This document shows positions 43,777-45,441 of a DNA stretch of 64,000 bases, piece after piece. Each line of letters begins with the position of its first letter. Positions within the stretch are counted from its first letter, which is position 1. The position numbers and the translations under genes are program-made. The notes beneath the pieces are model-generated. The model searched no databases. It worked only from the letters and a program-made list of their open reading frames with translations, and was not told the origin of the DNA. The DNA comes from Polaribacter sp. SA4-12 (GTDB lineage Bacteria; Bacteroidota; Bacteroidia; Flavobacteriales; Flavobacteriaceae), in the NCBI RefSeq assembly GCF_002163675.1, contig NZ_CP019334.1, forward strand, positions 1,374,001 to 1,438,000. Reading direction: 5' to 3'.

Positions 43777-44259
43777 ACTACCATCTTCTAAAATATCAAT
43801 ATATACTGTACCAATACCATTTGGTGTTTTTACAATACTTTTATTGTTTTCATGTAATAAAAATTTTAAACTAACTTTTGCTTCAGGAGAAATTTCGTTA
43901 ATTTTTTCAAAACTTGGTGGTGCCCATGTATTAAACTTTGTTAATTTTGGATGACTAGTCATAAATGGTCTAATTATAGAAGATTTTTCTCCATTTCCTG
44001 ACACATTATCTCCAATATTTTTATTTGGTATTATAAAATTTTCATATTCTATAGAATCTATAATCACAAATTTATTATTATCATTTATAACACCATTATA
44101 AAATATAAAACCAGTATAATCTTTTTCAGAATAATTTCTAATTATTAACTCATAACCACTTTCTTCTGCTTCATCAATATTGCCAATTGAAGGAATACAA
44201 GAATAGCTTACACATAAAATAATTAAATATATAAAGTATTTTATTTTTTTAGTTTCCAT
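43768..44259 (-). CDS. Small lipoprotein overlapping the DUF6973 lipoprotein gene
   Basis: 163 residues. Signal peptide with lipobox VSYSCIP (Cys about 21). The mature part is about 140 residues, beta-rich (YELIIRNYSEKDYTGFIFYNGVI; FVIIDSIEYENFIIPN; ISPEAKVSLKFLLHENN) with no recognised family. Its start overlaps the last 11 nt of the upstream DUF6973 gene, so the two are probably translated together. Whether it is an accessory or protective partner of that protein is inference from position only. Its 3' end overlaps the NUDIX remnant by 9 nt. Confidence 0.65.
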   Translation of the reverse strand: METKKIKYFIYLIILCVSYSCIPSIGNIDEAEESGYELIIRNYSEKDYTGFIFYNGVINDNNKFVIIDSIEYENFIIPNKNIGDNVSGNGEKSSIIRPFMTSHPKLTKFNTWAPPSFEKINEISPEAKVSLKFLLHENNKSIVKTPNGIGTVYIDILEDGSLR

Positions 44260-45417
44260 AATAGGGGTTTTTATTTATTTCTTCTGATAAATAAACTGGT
44301 TTTGTTTTATCTGCTCTAATTATTTTTAAATAAGCAAGTTCTTGAGGTTCAGTAATACCTTGTGTTGGAAAAAGATTATTCATATCAATAAAAACGGCAT
44401 GATCTTCAATTAAATCATAAGCAAAATCTTTTAGTTCATTTGCAGATGGTTCATTTAAACCCGTTTTCATCCATAAAAATTTTTTAAATGTAGTTTTATC
44501 TTGGTATAATTGCCTACCAACTTCGTTATTATGATAGTCCATATACAAAGTACCTACTTCATTAGTGGCACATCTTTCATTTAAATCTGCTATTTTCTTT
44601 GCAAAATTAAACTTTTTAAGTTTAGAAGATGTTGTCCAATAATATCTAGAAAGTAAAGCATTCCAAACAGTATGCCTATAATCGTCTCTTTTAGTATTAT
44701 TTGGGTCTAAGTGGTCATATTTACTTCTAGATGAATTTGTTGCACCCTTGTCTGCAAAATACATTGAATACAGTTGTTTGAAATCTATCCAATTAATATC
44801 TCCAAGCCTTAAAATACAGTCTTTTTTTTCTTCGTTTGGTAAATTTTCTGAATTATGAGTTGGAATAACGGGAGGATTATTATTAGGAGGATTATAATAA
44901 ACAAAATCATCAAGATCTAGAACTCCTTCCATATGATTTACAATTGTGTTATTTAAAGCCCTAGCATAATACTCATCAATTAAATCGATTTGATCTTCAA
45001 TTTCTGTTTGAGATAATTCTGGAAAATCGTATTGAATCATCTCTAAATTTACTCCGTTTTCTTCATAAGGGAAAAAAGGTAAAACCTGTTCTGCAGATTC
45101 TAAAGCCTGTTCAAATTCGTAATCTAAATTATCTGTTTTAGATTGGTAATTCCCAATTTTTTTTCTTTTACTCTTTAAAACTTTTAGGAAACTTTCAGAC
45201 TCGTCTAAAACTATTTCTTTTTCATCAAGAGCAAAACGGTTTTTTACTATTAATCCTTTGTAGTTTATTGTGGTAGCTTCTACTAAAGGCTTTTCATTTA
45301 AACTTGTAATACTATCTTGTTCAGAACAAGAAGATAAAATAAATAAGAAAATTAATAGATATTTAAAAAACCTAAGATGTGTGTGTGTGTGTGTGTGTGT
45401 GTGTGTGTTAAATTCAT
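44249..45417 (-). CDS. DUF6973 lipoprotein, probably phase-variable, currently out of frame
   Basis: The C-terminal part (44249-45040) is an intact frame with a DUF6973-like region: RDDYRHTVWNALLSRYYW and KIADLNERCATNEVGTLYMD, then NNEVGRQLYQ. The same frame continues open for 96 further codons upstream of 45040 to a lipobox ILSSC (Cys codon at 45328) and a hydrophobic signal segment (RFFKYLLIFLFILSS), but then meets no start codon before a stop at 45424. An ATG at 45417, followed by 15 CA units, lies one dinucleotide out of frame. With 14 units it would give a 388-residue lipoprotein starting MNL(TH)n. As sequenced, translation from that ATG stops after about 20 codons. A -7 box lies 17 nt upstream. 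Confidence 0.8.
45378..45407. repeat. Dinucleotide (TG/CA)15 microsatellite at a gene start
   Basis: Fifteen uninterrupted TG units on the plus strand, i.e. (CA)15 on the coding strand, beginning 10 nt after the first base of the ATG. The only such tract in the window. Confidence 0.97.
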
Positions 45418-45433
45418 AGTTTTATTTTTTTTT

Positions 45434-45441
45434 CAAATTTA
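45434..45441 (-). promoter_or_regulatory. Promoter -7 box of the phase-variable lipoprotein gene
   Basis: TAAATTTG on the minus strand, an exact TAnnTTTG, ending 17 nt before the ATG at 45417. It supports that ATG as the true start and puts the CA tract inside the transcript. Confidence 0.6.

Follow-up and report, generated by a model that had tools for sequence, protein, structure and literature searches.

The window analysed here is a stretch of 64,000 nucleotides from the genome of Polaribacter sp. SA4-12 (contig NZ_CP019334.1, positions 1,374,001 to 1,438,000), and the subject of this text is a minus-strand lipoprotein gene within it, called the effector gene below, together with the dinucleotide tract just behind its start codon. 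On the minus strand, the start codon ATG (45415..45417) is followed by AAT TTA and then by 31 bases of AC, that is, 15.5 units at 45408-45378, found in the sequence and by Tandem Repeats Finder (TRF, 100% match); the start context ATGAATTTA immediately precedes this tract. The lipoprotein frame is open between the stops at 45424-45422 and 44249-44251. Beyond the tract it comprises 375 codons and a stop codon (44249..45376) with no internal stop, and upstream of and into the lipobox it reads NYEF NTHTH... LRFFKYLLIFLFILSSC, the lipobox Cys codon (FILSSC) lying at 45326..45328. A frame scan from the stop at 45424 to the lipobox found no ATG, GTG or TTG in this frame. What the ATG actually opens is the frame MNLTHTHTHTHTHILGFLNIY, which ends in a stop after 21 codons (45352..45417, stop included), the frame offset between the ATG and the lipobox being 2; the start is therefore out of frame with the lipoprotein in this assembly. 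Each AC unit gained or lost shifts the frame by 2 nt, so that every third tract length brings the start into register. A perfect repeat, its unit length not divisible by 3, stands directly after the ATG plus 6 nt, and the repeat number sets whether the start and the downstream frame agree, both of which are features of simple sequence repeat (SSR) contingency loci. The initial annotation, made from the letters alone, had described this arrangement: its coordinates for the ATG, the tract, the lipobox Cys (45328) and the stop (45424) are exact by sequence, translation and frame checks, the lack of a start codon up to the lipobox is confirmed, its estimate of about 20 codons for the ATG frame compares with the 21 found, and its arithmetic, by which loss or gain of units restores the frame, holds.

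The reality of this start is supported by a homologue. Close relatives of the window protein in the protein database are only N-terminally short calls (P0001-P0004), and a scan of genome contigs gave one locus, in Polaribacter sp. IC066 (L023 of genome G119). This locus opens with ATGAATTTAACACACACACACATTTATTGG, and its in-frame translation is MNLTHTHIYWK...LFLSC, the ATG-to-lipobox offset being 0; the locus is identical to the window in the start codon, the next six bases and the beginning of the tract (ATGAATTTA then AC), and its tract is short. Because IC066 retains this context in frame, the ATG at 45417 can be regarded as the real start, as had been proposed. Further downstream, a frameshift within the RHxxW motif breaks the IC066 copy and makes it non-functional as assembled.

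The tract is unusual in its genome. In the window genome (G000; 3,990,161 bases in one contig, 99.87% complete), no second AC tract of at least 8 units exists in 3.99 Mb, and the length of the tract exceeds chance expectation; a chance tract at this locus is rejected. Among 166 genomes of the genus, the pattern D(AC)7, which overlooks tracts beginning with C, is matched in eight, at one place each, and none of the seven places outside the window is a lipoprotein start as judged by eye, so that a genus-wide CA-tract system is likewise rejected. Of these seven tracts, two are inside an open frame: that of L024 and that of L029, the latter at the start of a TatD-type gene. IC066 also contains a longer AC tract of 21.5 units (L026 1262-1304), which lies outside any recognised frame.

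Repeats of other kinds recur near the start in the wider family. Long-form homologues were found by family alignment search in 10 of the 166 genus genomes (E 1e-25) and in 2 of 397 family genomes (E 1e-30). At E 1e-10 the numbers rise to 32/166 and 82/397, mostly through matches of the DUF6973 core of short proteins; the searches of the 397 genomes scored 3 or 4 candidates per genome, so that absence there is soft. Altogether 21 family loci were read individually. In G172, 5.6 copies of the 13-mer AAAAACTTACAGA directly follow the ATG and leave it out of frame (L102b), and a remnant second copy in the same genome (L102a), like the gene of G186 (L098), has 1.6 copies of the 13-mer, also out of frame. 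In G081 (P0005, Polaribacter litorisediminis K8354_14965), a G7 run lies within the signal peptide, in frame, and in G415 a C7 run starts at gene base 20, in frame. The lipobox-versus-ATG offsets are 2 in the window and L102b, 1 in L098 and L102a, and 0 in L093, L103 and L106. This survey is a comparison of relatives such as the initial annotation had called for, with a short in-frame AC tract in IC066 and other units near the start elsewhere in the family.

Strong tracts in the first 110 nt occur at 5 of 19 family starts and in 1 of 245 control frames (Fisher p 6.5e-6); with the AC pair counted once, the family figure is 4 of 18 (Fisher p 7.5e-5), loci sharing a genome being not fully independent in this test. 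A strong tract was defined as a run of 7 G or 7 C, a dinucleotide of 6 units or a longer unit in 3 copies, at most 110 nt from the ATG, thresholds chosen once the tracts had been seen. The remaining frames of the 79 loci examined (339,910 bases) served as controls, each at least 150 codons long and counted from its first ATG; some of them are not genes. Three family tracts were found by script, namely L034 (=L106), L064 (=L093) and L066 (=L103), and the window and L102b, whose ATG is out of frame, were for that reason entered by hand. L098 and L102a, with 1.6 copies of the 13-mer, as well as L138 and L139, were counted as tract-free, and L097 and L101, which lack the N-terminus, were omitted from the 19. 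In a quick-search tree with Shimodaira-Hasegawa-like approximate likelihood ratio (SH-aLRT) support only, the 13-mer, G7, C7 and window genes fall on separate branches, which suggests separate origins, while the placement of IC066 is unsure (long branch, 49% filled).

Two further observations concern the DNA ahead of the start. An element AGGTGTTTTTCCCC lies upstream of the effector start in the window (45466..45479, minus strand). The cassette of G186 (L098 1117-1129) shares it, and both G172 copies (L102) have it in altered form; in the window and in these relatives alike it is placed 50-70 nt ahead of the ATG of the effector gene, although the flanking genes differ. In addition, G575 has a G9 run (L139 1659-1667) some 90 nt ahead of the start codon of its broken effector gene, beyond the counted stretch, which could act on a promoter.

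As for the protein itself, the effector was initially annotated as DUF6973-like, which is borne out by a match to DUF6973 (PF22322, E 3.8e-19) at residues 201-296 of 375 (44489..44776). According to the structure model, a Wnt/lipocone fold is predicted at about residues 179-372. The active site, defined as in the main text of Burroughs, Nicastro and Aravind 2025 (PMC12419801) by a His in the second, a Glu in the third and an Asp in the fourth helix, is predicted at H235 (44672-44674), E267 (44576-44578) and D280 (44537-44539), followed by NNxxGR (44537..44674 as a whole). These residues fall in the model helices 228-245, 252-268 and 274-294, and a fifth helix is modelled at 312-326. Among the family rows covering this region, His-Glu-Asp is kept in 16/16, NNxxG in 16/16 and the R in 15/16, and the structural matches of the model include BteO, a type VI secretion system (T6SS) effector. 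DUF6973 is predicted to be a Min-Wnt-like domain of the Wnt/lipocone fold. No paper in the open-licence library searched mentions DUF6973 by name, and if the prediction is true, it gains a likely context among bacterial Wnt-like lipocones. Lipidation is predicted from the lipobox, and Asp or Glu occurs among the second to fourth residues after the lipobox Cys in all 17 effectors counted (L102a and L139 uncounted). Acidic residues in this position resemble the surface-export signals of Bacteroidota lipoproteins, and the effector is probably surface-exposed.

The effector gene is followed by a small lipoprotein gene (43768..44259, minus strand), which overlaps the effector stop by 11 nt. In 18 of the 21 loci, the start of such a gene is no more than 50 nt away from the effector stop, often overlapping it, and sometimes there are tandem sets of 2-3; the first partner has 140-176 residues, that of L099 running off the contig. 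The exceptions are L100, L101 and L102a, the partner in L102a being truncated and fused. The 24 aligned small lipoproteins share 19-31% identity with that of the window, whose model is beta-rich (predicted local distance difference test score, pLDDT, 84.1) and showed no clear relative in a comparison with solved structures. Known lipocone immunity proteins have BamE-like, jelly-roll and other folds. From the gene layout, the small lipoprotein is probably an immunity partner. In L102 (3626-4435, minus strand), beside the two effector copies, the beginning of a small lipoprotein is joined to the C-terminal portion of a SerA-like dehydrogenase, so named from its likeness to L098:77-1075 and from Pfam, which is read as a sign of recombination between cassettes. 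The partner-less effector of L100 (G089) is embedded in an operon of ribosomal proteins, immediately ahead of the S8 gene (Pfam), and L101 (G069) has a decayed effector copy at the same kind of site.

The edges of the cassette can be recognised from the genes on both sides. Upstream lies a full DUF6503 gene (45538..46305, minus strand), and downstream a 3′ fragment of a NUDIX gene (43587..43760, plus strand; 82% identity to 39401-39574) and then a truncated copy of the DUF6503 gene (42968..43597, minus strand; 87% identity to the full copy). DUF6503 faces a NUDIX gene in 7 of 11 loci of other genomes (L141-L151); in six of these (L141-L144, L146, L148) the two genes are at most about 110 nt apart and the cassette is absent, and in L147 the spacing is about 490 nt. 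In the remaining four, no NUDIX gene lies within 1.5 kb of flanking sequence. Relatives have one empty junction and the window (39048-46305) has it twice: first as NUDIX gene (39048-39593), three genes and truncated DUF6503, then as NUDIX fragment, lipoprotein cassette and full DUF6503. The cassette looks laterally acquired, and since the duplicated copies diverge by 13-18%, it may have arrived together with the flanking DNA of a related strain. Other duplications are also present in this region: DUF294/CBS/cNMP-binding and DEDD exonuclease genes (Pfam) occur in two copies 8 kb apart (40387-42971 and 48467-51032; about 64-66% DNA identity), and a dispersed repeat of 63 bases stands at gene borders at 46399-46461 and 51112-51174 (89% identity between copies), a sequence resembling it being found upstream of the first effector copy in L102.

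Taken together, it is somewhat more probable than the opposite that the locus encodes a laterally acquired, predicted antibacterial lipoprotein effector, with a Min-Wnt-like domain at its C-terminal end and a candidate immunity partner beside it, and that slippage switches this effector, the assembly showing the OFF state. Because the start codon of the effector immediately precedes a slippage-prone tract, replication would change the number of AC units and thereby bring the ATG into frame or out of it, and a clone would become a mixture of effector-on and effector-off cells, and the small lipoprotein would retain its own start whatever the tract length. The benefit of such switching may be that a costly weapon is carried by part of the population and immunity by all cells. 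We infer the slippage in cells, its reversibility, the weapon and immunity roles, and this benefit. A dinucleotide tract of this length mutates whatever its purpose, so "switchable" is safer wording than "selected to switch"; the evidence for selection to switch comes from unlike tracts recurring at one place. The broader proposition, that mobile Wnt-fold lipoprotein weapons in Polaribacter and its relatives have repeatedly come under independent slippage control (AC, 13-mer, poly-G, poly-C) with ordinary starts for the immunity genes, some cells being armed and all immune, is put forward tentatively, at rather less than even probability.

The gene calls in databases carry traces that fit this proposal. 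Among the database proteins of the window/IC066 group (P0001-P0004 and P0020-P0022, the last three left out of the tree), six of seven have no signal peptide, the exception being that of IC066, and in P0001 and P0020, whose DNA is known, the presence or absence of the signal peptide is consistent with the tract. Among the relatives P0005-P0019, nine have none (P0007-P0009, P0012, P0014, P0016-P0019), and five of these start at MSKC, where the P0005 frame resumes behind the G tract. P0019 and P0005 share the source "lgn", 111 identical residues from MSKC and 89% identity over 274 aligned positions, with a signal peptide in P0005 alone. Differing tract lengths would explain this difference, and contig ends or a choice made by the gene caller could do the same. 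If slippage switching is real, it would account for many database entries of these proteins without signal peptides.

The main rival is decay: a laterally acquired effector may be on its way to being lost, the expansion of AC being the mutation that broke it and the tracts the outcome of relaxed selection. Two observations speak for it. Of the 21 loci, 12 have an open frame in register with its start (L010, L021, L091, L095, L096, L099, L100, L103, L104, L105, L106, L138), two (the window and L102b) are open and out of frame at the start alone, and seven are broken or have lost the N-terminus by other means (L092, L093, L097, L098, L101, L102a, L139); this frequency of loss is the best argument for plain decay. 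Moreover, the window and IC066 differ by 2 nt (modulo 3) between the tract and the lipobox, so that the tract alone need not cause the change of frame. Even so, apart from the start, nothing interrupts the 375 codons of the effector frame in the window, whose active site is kept, and G172 (L102b) is likewise open except at the start. Two relatives carry in-frame tracts in open genes, and relaxed selection leaves the position of the tracts in the first 60 nt unexplained. Decay is judged unlikely, though it is a serious contender.

It is about equally doubtful that the lipoprotein switches and is no weapon. It would then be an enzyme of the cell surface that modifies lipid head groups, or else a receptor for phages or predators whose variation lets the cell escape attack, and the small lipoprotein would be a subunit that partners it. 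Surface lipoproteins are classical phase-variable antigens. The lipocone superfamily also includes lipid- and envelope-modifying enzymes, according to the main text of PMC12419801. In contrast, the patchy, mobile and often broken cassettes, at differing sites and with tandem small lipoproteins, resemble toxin-immunity units, and the structural matches include a T6SS effector, BteO. An error of assembly or base calling, with a wrong tract length masking a gene that most cells have in frame, is improbable. Repeats this long are error-prone in some read types and the length comes from one assembly; the genome is nevertheless one nearly complete contig, several relatives in the database have similarly shortened gene calls, and a wrong length would leave the tract mutable. 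Slippage of the ribosome or polymerase on the tract might yield some full product at any length, given that one frame slip between ATG and lipobox suffices; with no motif seen for it, and with ribosomal slippage not expected on the 13-mer of G172, this is very improbable. The 263-residue protein of the gene callers (P0001, from the internal ATG at 45038..45040) hardly merits belief and is rejected as the real product, because the 112 residues ahead of it, lipobox included, are conserved in relatives and the short form would be without an export signal.

The phase variation proposed by the initial annotation thus stands in part: the frame does depend on tract length and start-proximal tracts recur, while "now OFF" describes the state of one assembly. 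The setting of host-associated bacteria, from which the annotation had drawn its parallel, does not on present evidence fit this gene: the genus is that of the marine Polaribacter sp. IC066, the protein is a predicted Wnt-fold/lipocone effector with a candidate immunity lipoprotein, and the cassette looks acquired.

The locus can be compared with three known systems. The autotransporter Lav of Haemophilus is reportedly an SSR contingency locus with a GCAA tract. The effector gene resembles such loci in its coding repeat near the start, with a unit that is not a multiple of 3, in the surface protein as output and in translation that depends on repeat number. It differs in that the bearer belongs to a free-living marine genus of Flavobacteriaceae, that what it encodes is a predicted effector whose neighbour is immunity-like, and that the unit varies among relatives (AC, 13-mer, G, C). 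Contingency loci are usually described in the host-pathogen setting, and searches of open-licence papers on phase variation in Polaribacter, Flavobacteriaceae, Flavobacterium or Bacteroidetes gave nothing on this kind of gene. If the proposal is true, slippage switching would arm part of a clonal marine population, beyond hiding antigens from hosts, as a heritable strategy of antagonism between free-living bacteria outside that setting.

The Min-Wnt family of the lipocone superfamily, as described in the main text of PMC12419801, is similar in its Wnt-like fold (here predicted), the His-Glu-Asp in successive helices, the NxxGR, the fifth helix, the lipobox and the two-gene layout with a lipoprotein partner, and the effector here differs in that its family belongs to the Bacteroidota and has an extended N-terminal portion. 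That main text does not name DUF6973, and "phase vari" matches only one reference title there. In SitA/SitI of myxobacteria, one operon, frequently carried on mobile DNA and known in many alleles, holds a toxin that is a lipoprotein and its immunity gene, and the abstract and introduction of PMC8546572 make no mention of phase variation. Toxins of this outer membrane exchange class are marked by TraA/TraB-dependent delivery and an escort domain. The window cassette shares with SitA/SitI the layout of a lipoprotein gene, here a candidate toxin, beside a candidate immunity gene, on DNA that looks acquired; unlike SitA, whose warheads are nucleases delivered via outer membrane exchange (PMC8546572), the domain here is predicted to be lipocone-like.
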